The notes beneath the pieces were generated by a model, which saw only the letters and a program-made list of their open reading frames with translations, did no database searches and was not told the DNA's origin. Shown one piece after another: positions 48,166 through 58,525 of a DNA stretch of 59,979 nt. The position numbers and the translations under genes are program-made. The DNA lies in contig JAIRKD010000097.1 of assembly GCA_031260285.1 (NCBI GenBank), positions 1 to 59,979 on the forward strand, read 5' to 3'. The DNA is from Gemmatimonadota bacterium. Its GTDB lineage: Bacteria > Gemmatimonadota > Gemmatimonadetes > Longimicrobiales > Longimicrobiaceae. Numbering within the stretch: the first letter of the stretch is position 1; the number at the start of each line of letters is the position of its first letter.

Positions 48166-50337
48166 ATGCGGAGAATGCGGATCATCTCAGGTGGAGTGCT
48201 GGTGGCGGTCCTTGGTCTGACCGAGGGGTGCGCCGCCTCACAGCCATCCATGCCCCGGCTCACTCCGGGCAAAACGGTGGAAGCACGGATCTCTTCAGAC
48301 GCGCCTCTGCTCGGGGATACCCCCTTCCGCTCCTTCCGCTTTCAAGCCAATGCCGGCGAGCGCTACCTCGTTACAGCGCTGGGAGAAGCTATTTCGCCCT
48401 ACCTCCGGATCGGCCGCAATATAGCTGGAGTCACCGACTTCATTCTTGCCGGTGGCGGCGAAGGGACGGGGAGTCGGGTGGCCTATCTCTTCACCCCGAA
48501 AACCAGCGGTGAGTACCTCATTGTCTTAAACGATACCGAGGGTCGGACCGGAAACTTCTCGATTGCTGTTACCCGGGCGGGAGATGCCTCCCAGCCGCTC
48601 ACGATCGGTGAGCCGATGGCTGGCAACCTCACGGTTGAGGCAATCCATCGCTTTCGGGCGACCCGGGGGACGCAGCTCGTGATCACTGCCCGCTCCCGGG
48701 AGTTCGACACGGTTCTGGAGGTAGGCACCATCACAGAGGAAGGTGTTTTCATCCCTACCGATTCGGATGACGACGGGGGGGATGGTCTCAACTCCCGGCT
48801 CTGGTTTGTTCCTCCGGTTGACGGGATGTACGCGCTGCGGGTTACCGGATATGGGGAGTCGGGCGGCAGCTATATGGTCCTTGTCTCCGAACCGGGGCCA
48901 GCTGCGGACCCCACCGTATTCCAGCCGGAGACCACAGTTGGAGGGGAGCTGACGGACGCGACGCCTCTCAACGAAGAAGGGTCACCTGTTGAGGACTGGG
49001 CTCTTCAGACAGAGGCAAACGTCCGGTACCGGGTGAGCCTCTGGTCCAATGATTTTGATACCTACCTGATCGCTGGCCGGATGGAAGCGGGCCGGTTTGT
49101 GGAGCTGGATACCAACGACGATGCCCGTGCCGGCGATCTGGGTCCGACGGACTCCCGTCTGTTTGTCACCGGGACCGGTAGTCCGATGCTCTTCCGGGTA
49201 CGCGCCTACAGCTCGGACGAACGTGGACGTTACTCGCTTGAGGCCACGCGAGTGCCTGATGCGCGGCTCACTCCGGTTGTGACGGATCTCGCTCCGGGTG
49301 AATCACACTCCGCCGAACTGACGCAGAGTGACGCTATTCTGCCCTCCGGCCACGCCTACCGTGAATACCGGATCCGGGCTACAGCGGGTGAGCGGCTCGA
49401 AGTCGTTCTGCATTCAGACGAGTTTGATGCCTGGCTTGGTGCAGGACTGGGTTCAGGGCCTTCAATGACCGAACTCTTCAGCGACGACGACGGTGCCGGC
49501 AACGGCACTGACGCACGCCTGGTCTTCTCTGCCCCGACAACCGGTGAATACACCATCCGGGTGCGCGCCTACGGCTCCGGCGGGACTGGCCGGTATACGA
49601 TCCGTGCGGCGCGTCTTCCCCAGCCCCGACGGGAGCCTGTTGTCGAGACCATCACCTTCGGGCAGACACGGACCGGTGAGCTGACGGACGTGGATGCGCT
49701 GCTTCCCACCGGTCATTCGTACCGGGAATACCGGTTCAGGGCGACCGCGGGACAGCGTGTGGATATCCGGCTGTCATCAGATGATTTTGATACCTGGGTG
49801 GCGGTTGGTCTCAGCTCGGGCCCCGATATGGCGGAGCTCTTCAGCAACGATGATGGCGGGAACAGCGGAACCGACTCCCGGCTTGCGTTTGCTGCGCCGA
49901 TCGCGGGGGAATATACAATCCGTGTACGCGCCTACTCCGCGAGTTCGAAGGGCCGGTACAGCATTTCCCTCTCCGAGGTGCCGCCCCCACCCGCGGTTCG
50001 GAGGCTTGAGCCTGGTGTTCCGGTTTCAGATCTGATCACCGATCTCGACCGGACGCTGAGCGGCTCTCCTCCGTTCCATGACTGGACCTTCCAGGCGAAG
50101 CAGGGTGACACATTTGTCATCACCCTCGAATCGGAGGATTTTGACACTGTGGTTGAGGTCGGCAGGAGCTCGAGTGGGTACTTCGCGGTGCTGGACAGCA
50201 ATGATGACTCTGGCGACGACCTGAACTCCCGGCTCACCTTCATCGCTCCGGAGGATGGCGCCTATACGGTCCGGGCCAGGCCATATTCCAACAGCAGCCG
50301 CGGCGTCTATACGCTTACGCTCCGACGCAGGTCCTGA
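48166..50337 (+). CDS. Lipoprotein made of tandem PPC (pre-peptidase C-terminal) domains
   Basis: A 723-residue lipoprotein (Cys at 22) built of six tandem beta-sandwich units of about 110 residues. Each unit has a strand like YREYRFRATAGQRVDI, an acidic turn (DSDDDGGDGLNSRL, DTNDDARAGDLGPTDSRL, SDDDGAGNGTDARL, SNDDGGNSGTDSRL, DSNDDSGDDLNSRL) and GEYTIRVRAYS. PPC domains usually trail secreted peptidases; here no peptidase is present. The acidic turns could bind calcium. ATG 48166 has AGGAAG upstream. Its stop overlaps the ChaN-like start by one base. Confidence 0.85.
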   Translation: MRRMRIISGGVLVAVLGLTEGCAASQPSMPRLTPGKTVEARISSDAPLLGDTPFRSFRFQANAGERYLVTALGEAISPYLRIGRNIAGVTDFILAGGGEGTGSRVAYLFTPKTSGEYLIVLNDTEGRTGNFSIAVTRAGDASQPLTIGEPMAGNLTVEAIHRFRATRGTQLVITARSREFDTVLEVGTITEEGVFIPTDSDDDGGDGLNSRLWFVPPVDGMYALRVTGYGESGGSYMVLVSEPGPAADPTVFQPETTVGGELTDATPLNEEGSPVEDWALQTEANVRYRVSLWSNDFDTYLIAGRMEAGRFVELDTNDDARAGDLGPTDSRLFVTGTGSPMLFRVRAYSSDERGRYSLEATRVPDARLTPVVTDLAPGESHSAELTQSDAILPSGHAYREYRIRATAGERLEVVLHSDEFDAWLGAGLGSGPSMTELFSDDDGAGNGTDARLVFSAPTTGEYTIRVRAYGSGGTGRYTIRAARLPQPRREPVVETITFGQTRTGELTDVDALLPTGHSYREYRFRATAGQRVDIRLSSDDFDTWVAVGLSSGPDMAELFSNDDGGNSGTDSRLAFAAPIAGEYTIRVRAYSASSKGRYSISLSEVPPPPAVRRLEPGVPVSDLITDLDRTLSGSPPFHDWTFQAKQGDTFVITLESEDFDTVVEVGRSSSGYFAVLDSNDDSGDDLNSRLTFIAPEDGAYTVRARPYSNSSRGVYTLTLRRRS

Positions 50338-56014: not shown

Positions 56015-58525
56015 TTACGGCGCCTCCCGGATCGTCTCGATCCGCCACTCCTCAGCCCGTCGGGAGAGGGTTGCGCTGTTGCGCTGGACCCAGGACTCCG
56101 CGCTGCCATTCCCGTTGACGAAGTCGATCGTCATCGTGAAGGTGACCTGCGAGGATTCACCCGCTCCAGGCACGCTGCTGAGACCCGATACCCTGGCGCG
56201 AATCGAAGCGTTATTTGCGAAGAACTCCGACCAGGCAGCCCGTTCCGCTTCCGTGATTCCCGGATAGGCCGCCGCGATCTGCTCAACATTCCTGGACTCG
56301 ATGGCCCCCGCCAGACGGCCCAGGATATCCCGCAGTTCGGCTGGCACCGCTGCATCCGCGCCAGACCCTACTGCTGCCCCCGACACAGAAGTCACACCAG
56401 TTGAAGGGACTGCGTTTGCACCGGAGGTCCGGGTGAGATCCACGGATCCGACGATCTCCCGACCCGAAGTTCCCTGCCGGGTAGCAATATCAACCAGAGC
56501 TGGTGTCCAGATCAGAAGCTGTCCGGCTGATGCCTCAAAAAAGGTATCAGCAACAGCCTCCCCGGGGATCAGCACAGATACGAAGTGAGGCCCCGGAGGG
56601 AGTGTCAGCGACCGCCCTGTCCGCGGCTGATTATCAACAGCGATGACAGCGTTACGCGGCAGATCACCCTCAATCGTGAAGATCGCGGGATCCGCTGACT
56701 CCGGGGAGGAGACATCCCCCGAATGTGCTTCAGCTGCCGCAGCGGCCGCAGCGGCGAGGGCGGCATCGTCGGGAGGACCGTCAGCGGGTGATACCGCCGG
56801 CTCAAAAGTCAGAGCGTCCGACTGGAGATCCGAGGCGAGCGGAGGAAGCTTCCCCTCCAGAGAGACCTCGCGGGACGACATCCCGAACCACACAAGGGCA
56901 CCGGCCACAACCGCCGCACCCCCGGCAAGAAGCAGCCATCGGTACTTCTGCCCTGGCTTTGCGGAAGCGGCTCTTCCATCCCTGGAATTCGACCGGGGCA
57001 ACTGCGGCCCGCCAGACCCCCCGTCCATAGTTGGTGCCGGATCCGCAGCCCGCGTTTCAACCACCCCCTCCGCAGCACTCTCCGGCGCGGAAGCCCCCCT
57101 GCCCGCAAGCTGGTCCGCTGCCCGTCCCAGCGCTTCCCGGATCAGGAGCGCTGATTGAAAACGGGTGGACGGATCGCGGGAGAGGGCAGTGGCAACCAGC
57201 TCATCAAGGAAGACAGGAACGTCCGGCTCAAGAGAACGAACCCGGGGAGCATCCTCCGTCATCCGCCGCCCGAAGTCCAGAGAACCATTCAGGCTGTCAA
57301 ATACCCGCTGCCCGGTCAGCATCTGGAAGAGAATACAGCCCAGGCCGTACACGTCACCACGCGCGTCATCCGCTGAACCCATCAGCTGCTCCGGACTCTG
57401 GAAGTCCAGAATATCAGCAGCAACCCCGCGCGCCGCGCCATCCGTCCCCCCGAGGAGAGCACCGGCAATACCAAAGCCGGTTACCTGCAGCTGATCACCC
57501 TCCGGACGTCGGGCAACAACAACATCCCGGGGAGAAAGACAGCGATGGAAGATACCAGCGGCGTGCGCTGCGACAAGAGCATCCGCGATCTGCAGGCCGA
57601 TGCTGATGGATCGCTCCGGGGGGAAAAGAGCTCCCCCGGCAAGGATCCCGGCAACCGAATCCCCCTCGATGGACTCCGAAGCGATGTAGAAGCCTTCCGC
57701 GATTGTACCACGGTCGAGAATCTTCGCGATGTTCTCCTGGCGGATTCCACCCGCAGCACCCGTGTCGGTGAGCAGCCGTTCAAGAACTGTGGGATCCTTC
57801 ACCAGCAACGGGTCCAGAACGGTTACCGTGCACCGGCTTTCCGTCCAGGTATCATTCGCGAGGAAGACCCTCCGAAGCTCGTCAGCGCTGATCTCTGCAA
57901 GGATGCGGAAACGGTCCGCGATGATCCCGTTGAAGGGCGCCCTCTCCGGCACGGACACAGCCACCCGTTGAGCCATCGCGCCCGGAGCGGGAAGCTTCAC
58001 AAGCCGGGTCACCCCGACTGCGAGGCAGAGCTGGCCCTCATCGTCGCGTTCTCCATGAAGGCCAAGAGGAACAACGCATCCGGTTGAAAGCTCCCGGGCG
58101 AAGAAAAGCTTCTCCTCGTGACCCATCCTTCCGATGGTACCCAGCAGCTCAAAACCGACCCCCGCCACCTCCCCGACGGCACGCGCGAGGTCTTCACCGG
58201 AGAGGTGTGGCAACGGGTTTACATCGTCGTACTCCATCCGGGTGTGGCAGACCCGGCAAAGTATCGCCCGGTTCTTCGCCGCGGTTCCACAGACCACACA
58301 GAGGGAGCCATGCGTCAGCAGCGTGTCATCCAGCTCCGTATTCACCTCAACGGAGTATCGGGAATCCGACGTCCGCCAGGCAGAAAGAATCGCCAGTGTA
58401 CCGTTCCGGATGTCGCGGGAAAGATAGACTTTCCCTCCACGGGGGTCCGGGGCGAGTTCCCCCAGAATTTCAAAACCGTTATCGGTGTGCTCACGAATCG
58501 CGGTTTCGAGTTCGCCAGTCATCAT
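56015..58525 (-). CDS. Predicted pseudokinase (Ser/Thr kinase-like) membrane protein
   Basis: An 836-residue protein. Residues about 200-465 follow the Ser/Thr kinase fold, and SPEQLMGSADDARGDVYGLGCILFQMLTGQ is well kept. Key catalytic residues are changed: HRD-K-N is HRCLSPRDV (327-335), DFG is GFG (350-352), and the VAIK Lys is absent in RCTVTVLDPLL. Two N-terminal segments (18-50, 124-158) look like extra N-lobe strands, with a zinc ribbon (Cys 76, 79, 90, 93) between. A membrane segment lies at 529-548, and an NTF2-like domain at the C-terminus. A signalling scaffold role is inferred. Confidence 0.72.
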   Translation of the reverse strand: MMTGELETAIREHTDNGFEILGELAPDPRGGKVYLSRDIRNGTLAILSAWRTSDSRYSVEVNTELDDTLLTHGSLCVVCGTAAKNRAILCRVCHTRMEYDDVNPLPHLSGEDLARAVGEVAGVGFELLGTIGRMGHEEKLFFARELSTGCVVPLGLHGERDDEGQLCLAVGVTRLVKLPAPGAMAQRVAVSVPERAPFNGIIADRFRILAEISADELRRVFLANDTWTESRCTVTVLDPLLVKDPTVLERLLTDTGAAGGIRQENIAKILDRGTIAEGFYIASESIEGDSVAGILAGGALFPPERSISIGLQIADALVAAHAAGIFHRCLSPRDVVVARRPEGDQLQVTGFGIAGALLGGTDGAARGVAADILDFQSPEQLMGSADDARGDVYGLGCILFQMLTGQRVFDSLNGSLDFGRRMTEDAPRVRSLEPDVPVFLDELVATALSRDPSTRFQSALLIREALGRAADQLAGRGASAPESAAEGVVETRAADPAPTMDGGSGGPQLPRSNSRDGRAASAKPGQKYRWLLLAGGAAVVAGALVWFGMSSREVSLEGKLPPLASDLQSDALTFEPAVSPADGPPDDAALAAAAAAAAEAHSGDVSSPESADPAIFTIEGDLPRNAVIAVDNQPRTGRSLTLPPGPHFVSVLIPGEAVADTFFEASAGQLLIWTPALVDIATRQGTSGREIVGSVDLTRTSGANAVPSTGVTSVSGAAVGSGADAAVPAELRDILGRLAGAIESRNVEQIAAAYPGITEAERAAWSEFFANNASIRARVSGLSSVPGAGESSQVTFTMTIDFVNGNGSAESWVQRNSATLSRRAEEWRIETIREAP

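Follow-up and report, generated by a model that had tools for sequence, protein, structure and literature searches.

A predicted membrane-anchored pseudokinase with a kinase-derived zinc module in a bacterium of the phylum Gemmatimonadota

The window, i.e., the whole stretch of 59,979 nucleotides that was analyzed, carries at positions 56015 to 58525 of the minus strand one open reading frame that encodes a protein of 836 amino acids (P0001) without interruption. The neighboring genes encode a TPR-methyltransferase, a β-lactamase-fold hydrolase, an M48 peptidase, and LemA, and the codon-position GC pattern of the P0001 gene is that of these neighbors. Because the frame is open and the codon usage is normal, a pure contig or frameshift artifact was ruled out as the source of the protein. 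Elsewhere in the window (48166 to 50337), a lipoprotein-like protein of 723 amino acids with repeated PPC domains is encoded upstream of a ChaN/Tiki-family protein. The features of the P0001 gene are as follows.

56015..58525, minus strand: whole gene, 836 amino acids, in the order module, pseudokinase, membrane helix, PEGA-like domain, NTF2-like domain
58328..58519, minus strand: module half 1, residues 3 to 66, an α-helix and four strands resembling kinase β1-β3 (AlphaFold2, hhalign, HMM matches in the PDB)
58235..58306, minus strand: Cys4 zinc ribbon, residues 74 to 97, with Cys76, Cys79, Cys90, and Cys93 (invariance; Pfam DZR and Zn_Ribbon)
57998..58213, minus strand: module half 2, residues 105 to 176 (hhalign to half 1 and to the kinase N-lobe; AlphaFold2)
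57662..57925, minus strand: N-lobe of the predicted pseudokinase, residues 201 to 288, with the Gly loop and the VAIK Lys lost and αC present in the model (alignment, AlphaFold2)
57107..57661, minus strand: C-lobe of the predicted pseudokinase, residues 289 to 473, with its structural residues kept (Pfam, alignment, AlphaFold2, Foldseek)
57515..57553, minus strand: catalytic loop HRCLSPRD, which is HRDLKPDN in the relatives (alignment)
57470..57478, minus strand: GFG in place of DFG (alignment)
56879..56938, minus strand: single membrane helix, approximately residues 530 to 549 (AlphaFold2 helix 528 to 549 and sequence)
56498..56692, minus strand: PEGA-like β domain, residues 612 to 676 (AlphaFold2 strands with a pLDDT of ~90; alignment to the relatives L003 and L004)
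56024..56341, minus strand: NTF2/SnoaL-like domain, residues 729 to 834 (AlphaFold2 pLDDT >90; match to the relative L110)

The AlphaFold2 model of full-length P0001 contains a complete bilobal kinase fold (residues 206 to 473), a helix (528 to 549), a β domain (614 to 673), and an NTF2-like domain (729 to 834); the pTM is 0.41, and the placement of the domains relative to each other is unreliable. The N-lobe sheet, helix αC, and helical C-lobe of the Hanks-type fold are all present in the model, and Foldseek superposes the kinase on Stk1, PknB, and PknA with TM scores of 0.8 to 0.88 (about 0.86). The clear Pfam match is limited to the C-lobe (Pkinase, E = 2e-15, residues 260 to 457). The reading made from the sequence alone, which held that the kinase fold is well kept in its C-lobe, agrees with the Pfam match, the model, and the 22 structural invariants described below.

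In an alignment of the kinase domain of P0001 with 14 relatives, 37 positions are invariant in those others, and 15 of them are lost in P0001: G213S, G215D, M217L, A233T, K235T, F251L, H263Q, M283S, D329C, K331S, N334D, D350G, T364A, G371D, and Y375F. The losses include both glycines of the Gly loop, the Ala and Lys of VAIK (Thr235 at the Lys position), the Asp of HRD (Cys329), the Lys and Asn of the catalytic loop (Asp334 at the Asn position), the Asp of DFG (Gly350), and the Thr of the activation loop; the position of the αC Glu is occupied by Asp. P0001 therefore lacks the residues that mark an active Hanks-type kinase. On the other hand, the remaining 22 positions, which secure the C-lobe, are kept, among them the His-Arg of HRD, Pro332, the Phe of DFG, the SPEQ motif, Asp391 of αF, and Arg455 of αI. 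When the invariant positions are divided by textbook kinase knowledge, all 8 catalytic or nucleotide-binding positions are lost, versus 7 of the 29 others (Fisher p = 1.7e-4). As a control, each of the 8 closest relatives was left out in turn, and all of them proved to keep every position that is invariant in the rest. It had been proposed that every catalytic residue is altered, and HRC, the Ser for Lys, GFG, and the missing VAIK Lys are indeed observed, but the proposed Val for Asn results from a misalignment, the actual replacement being Asn to Asp (HRCLSPRD). A bacterial pseudokinase, in the general sense, is a kinase fold with at least one of the three catalytic motifs lost; in P0001 all three are lost and the fold is predicted. 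From these residues we infer that the domain does not phosphorylate, and MgATP binding in the normal way is probably absent.

SelO and SidJ are atypical kinases that use other residues, and P0001 might likewise still bind nucleotide or catalyze by such means. The intact fold in the model and the presence of Arg333 and Asp334 in the catalytic loop are consistent with this idea, and some bacterial pseudokinases that lack the β3 Lys have been proposed to bind ATP (PMC12599244). We consider it very unlikely, as the Gly loop, the β3 Lys, the HRD Asp, the catalytic-loop Lys, and the DFG Asp are lost together and no conserved set of substitute residues was found in any related sequence.

The kinase domain of P0001 falls inside a clade of kinases of the zinc ribbon-kinase-NTF2 family of the phylum (SH-aLRT, 87%), the members of which have active motifs, and its branch length is 1.86 against a median of 0.38. 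HRD and an Asp of the DFG type are kept in all related kinases that were recovered. None of these is a close orthologue of P0001, and a search of the contigs of the same genome for related loci yielded only distant ordinary kinases. The HRC/GFG pattern is thus known from one genome and is not fixed among homologues, and P0001 is, judged by motifs, the sole known pseudokinase of its family. The sequence-only reading had reserved the case that homologues would retain HRD and DFG and reveal a one-off mutation. Homologues of the same architecture do retain both motifs, but the loss of all eight catalytic positions, together with the kept C-lobe skeleton and the long branch, argues against a single stray mutation. 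These observations also bear on whether P0001 is a decaying kinase gene, the function of which is drifting away and the product of which has no specific noncatalytic role: the occurrence of the pseudokinase in one genome only, its very long branch, the absence of the second zinc ribbon that precedes the kinase in the relatives, and the active motifs of all relatives would be expected of decay, whereas the open frame of 836 codons, its normal codon-position GC, the concentration of the losses on catalytic positions with 22 structural invariants kept (p = 1.7e-4), and the folding of all domains in the model, the NTF2-like domain at a pLDDT of >90, would not. Decay is in our estimation unlikely. 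The catalytic loss with a kept skeleton and the fold like those of Stk1, PknB, and PknA count instead for a dead pseudokinase.

A well-supported clade of nine kinases (L111, on contig C88 of the same genome, and L018, L020, L026, L031, L101, L009, L010, and L013; SH-aLRT, 99) has DFD for DFG, with HRDLKP and the Asn intact, a change in the metal-binding motif that is fixed in this clade. Another domain encoded in the same genome (L113, contig C79) is a very divergent kinase-like domain with a branch length of 3.8, an odd composition, and the motif YRDLKPGN. A kinase relative that lacks the module (L109, G003 contig 346, 6981 to 8468; L003, 2686 to 3924) lies near a gene that looks TssK-like by eye, on account of which the kinase may be associated with type VI secretion; the protein encoded beside it has repeated EFTxLF motifs and ends in a membrane helix.

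Compared with the membrane Ser/Thr kinases PknB and Stk1, P0001 has the same kinase fold and the same order of cytoplasmic kinase, membrane helix, and outer domain, whereas it has no PASTA domain (Pfam), has lost the catalytic residues, and carries an additional N-terminal doublet/zinc module. The match to the NCBIfam model of PknB/Stk1 (NF033483; HMM E = 1e-46) reaches 160 bits against a cut-off of 450, and so P0001 is not a PASTA kinase of this type. The described features of the DLHK, ActPs2, CP1, and DYD pseudokinases set P0001 apart from all four. The DLHK group is proteobacterial, keeps the HRD Asp, and has no membrane helix (PMC12599244), whereas P0001 has HRC and such a helix; the ActPs2 group (β3 Lys to Arg, HRD to HRN, DFG deleted) and the DYD group (β3 Lys to Arg, DYD motif) do not accommodate Thr235, Cys329, and GFG; and the CP1 group is fused to COG3899 and lacks a membrane helix, whereas P0001 has the helix and no such Pfam domain. 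As regards the GLW, ActPs1, and ActPs3 groups, which are defined by family-specific constraints and taxa, the DFG position of P0001 is GFG and not GLW, and no actinobacterial domain partners were found in it. EssB/YukC and MviN are dead kinases too, associate with the membrane, and act as scaffold or recruiter (PMC12599244), whereas their architectures and phyla are different and a zinc/N-lobe doublet is not described for either. As a dead kinase P0001 is one more of a known kind, and the novelty lies in its N-terminal module.

The N-terminal 182 residues, modeled by AlphaFold2 with 17 relatives (pLDDT = 83, pTM = 0.75), fold as an α-helix and four strands, a zinc ribbon, and a second α-helix and four strands. 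Cys76, Cys79, Cys90, and Cys93 are invariant in the 18 module sequences, and most members match DZR or Zn_Ribbon of Pfam, in which no family covers the module beyond these weak ribbons; as had been proposed, the zinc ribbon lies between the two N-lobe-like segments. The two halves match each other in hhalign (99.1%, E = 1.5e-17) and also match the N-lobes of the kinases of the phylum (94.5% for half 1 and 84.4% for half 2), versus below 0.5% for the kinase C-lobes and the NTF2 domain, which served as controls. Searched against all PDB sequences, the module profile matches mainly kinases, with both halves at β1-β3, although single matches are weak (E = 0.01 and above); in Foldseek searches of the PDB, matches of approximately 40 residues to kinase β1-β3 stood out. 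The suggestion that residues 18 to 50 and 124 to 158 resemble kinase β1-β3 is confirmed by these results. The source of the module is suggested by its ribbon and half 2, which match, with E values of about 1e-10 to 1e-15, the zinc ribbon plus N-lobe that ordinary kinases carry in many genomes. Each half lacks helix αC, and the halves are thus not whole N-lobes; they form one separate module and not, as had been supposed, two of three N-lobe-like units. The whole module gave no significant fold in Foldseek against the PDB, and RnlA and Pur-α, with TM scores of about 0.2, were taken as chance matches. When all architectures were aligned jointly, MAFFT set half 2 on the kinase N-lobe, and this alignment was rejected. 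Neither the equivalent of the β3 Lys nor the Gly loop is conserved in the halves, and for want of the Lys they are unlikely to bind nucleotide. The module halves of P0001 are more diverged too (branch length, 2.58). In the literature on kinase N-lobe duplication and on pseudokinases in Gemmatimonadetes, we found nothing relevant and no paper describing the module. It is an uncatalogued domain of two kinase-derived fragments around a zinc ribbon, and this is what is new here.

Of the 395 genomes of the phylum that were sampled, 28, belonging to several families, have the full-length module, as do two further genomes of the order. It is usually found without an attached kinase and takes the position of the kinase ahead of a membrane helix that is followed by PEGA/Sel1, SPOR, or NTF2-like domains. 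The architectures are as follows.

Module, membrane helix, PEGA, Sel1: L059-L066, L072, L076, L080
Module, membrane helix, SPOR: L085
Module, membrane helix, NTF2: L110
Short module, membrane helix: L038, L040, L042-L044, L068, L091, L093
Module, zinc ribbon, active kinase, membrane helix, NTF2: L105, L106, L108, and, cut by contig ends, L005, L067, L107
Kinase and outer domains, no module: L003, L004

The family of the phylum with zinc ribbon, active kinase, membrane helix, PEGA, and NTF2 (L003, L004, L005, L067, L105-L108) shares with P0001 the kinase clade and the C-terminal domains and, in most members, the N-terminal module, whereas it keeps HRD, DFG, the VAIK-type Lys, and the second zinc ribbon, all of which are lost in P0001. 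Members with both the module and an active kinase (L005, L067, L105-L108) come from three taxonomic families. The module-only membrane proteins (L059-L066, L085, L110) resemble P0001 in that the module is followed by a membrane helix and an outer domain, whereas they have no kinase domain. The SPOR domains that accompany the module in L085 (G372) hint at a connection with peptidoglycan in that lineage.

The membrane segment and the C-terminal NTF2-like domain, both anticipated from the sequence, are present in the model (528 to 549 and 729 to 834), and a PEGA-like domain (approximately 612 to 676) had been overlooked; the PEGA match is weak in L003 and clear in the module relative L059. Since basic residues lie N-terminal of the membrane helix (~530 to 549), the kinase side is predicted to be cytoplasmic. 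Residues 729 to 834 show the helix hairpin and long curved antiparallel sheet of the NTF2/SnoaL-like fold, and the relative L108 has a weak SnoaL_4 match. Full-length CaMKII is a kinase joined to an NTF2-like hub, and the full P0001 model also matches the CaMKII holoenzyme in Foldseek. The module of P0001 clusters, with weak support (90/77), among modules from its own taxonomic family; one of these is that of the kinase-less L110, which is 32% identical in the module (E = 5e-16) and 33% in the C-terminus (E = 2e-12). L110 is essentially P0001 without the kinase, and its matches at both ends indicate that the module and the outer domain outlast the kinase. Most simply, these sequences would go back to a single ancestral receptor kinase, with the module lost in L003, catalysis in P0001, and the kinase in L110; independent fusion is a possible alternative.

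In flanks of up to about 5 kb to each side, 12 of the 28 module genes have a Ser/Thr kinase gene, 10 of them with strong scores; the density of kinase genes would lead one to expect 1.4. In several of the pairs (L120, L122, L135, L142) the two genes diverge and lie close together. The probability obtained by simulation (0 of 200,000) is too favorable, given the relatedness of the genomes and a possible clustering of kinase genes, but the pairs span families f3, f4, f5, and f9. This adjacency and the fusions in cis count for a module that engages kinases; the adjacency could, however, stem from local duplication of the zinc ribbon and N-lobe of a neighboring kinase, which counts against this reading. 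No kinase gene is found among the neighbors of P0001, and three other kinases of its genome above the Pfam cut-off (contigs C88, C28, and C79) could be its partners. Alternatively, the module may have no functional relation to kinases and be a zinc domain, built from kinase hairpins, that binds a small ligand or protein, with the pseudokinase as a spacer from the membrane. Its occurrence mostly without a kinase, the unconserved β3 Lys equivalent and Gly loop, and the failure of the whole module to match in Foldseek fit such a domain, whereas the enrichment of kinase genes beside module genes and the kinase fusions known from three taxonomic families speak against it, and we regard it as improbable.

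We favor, with moderate confidence, a membrane-anchored and catalytically dead Ser/Thr pseudokinase that would serve as a noncatalytic receptor, the module of which would engage kinases. The greater divergence of the module halves in P0001, the absence of a kinase gene beside it, and the lack of a close orthologue of the pseudokinase count against this reading. Its ancestor would have been an active receptor kinase composed of the doublet/zinc module, a second zinc ribbon, the kinase, the membrane helix, and PEGA-like and NTF2-like domains. P0001 would act as a noncatalytic receptor or scaffold, in which the PEGA/NTF2-like part outside the membrane senses or oligomerizes and the cytoplasmic module and pseudokinase offer kinase-derived surfaces. 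The module may engage active Ser/Thr kinases in cis in the kinase-bearing relatives and in trans in P0001 and the relatives that have no kinase, possibly through mimicry of N-lobe contacts like those of the back-to-back type in PknB. Back-to-back dimers are formed by PknB and MviN (PMC12599244, PMC6333020), the latter a pseudokinase that acts as a recruiter, and EssB/YukC is a noncatalytic bacterial pseudokinase with a scaffold role (PMC12599244). More tentatively, and with greater doubt, the module may be a new regulatory domain that arose when the zinc ribbon and β1-β3 of a kinase were duplicated and αC and the C-lobe were dropped, and that now occupies the kinase's place in membrane receptors and regulates active kinases encoded nearby through N-lobe mimicry; P0001 would then be an intermediate, in which the kinase is dead and the module and outer domain live on.

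Dead kinases are known, whereas Pfam has no entry for the widespread receptor module described here, in which duplicated kinase N-lobe hairpins alone enclose a zinc ribbon. Should the module regulate kinases, it would itself be a regulator of kinase origin, testable with one divergent module/kinase gene pair, and the series from active kinase through pseudokinase to deleted kinase would show a receptor outliving its enzyme.
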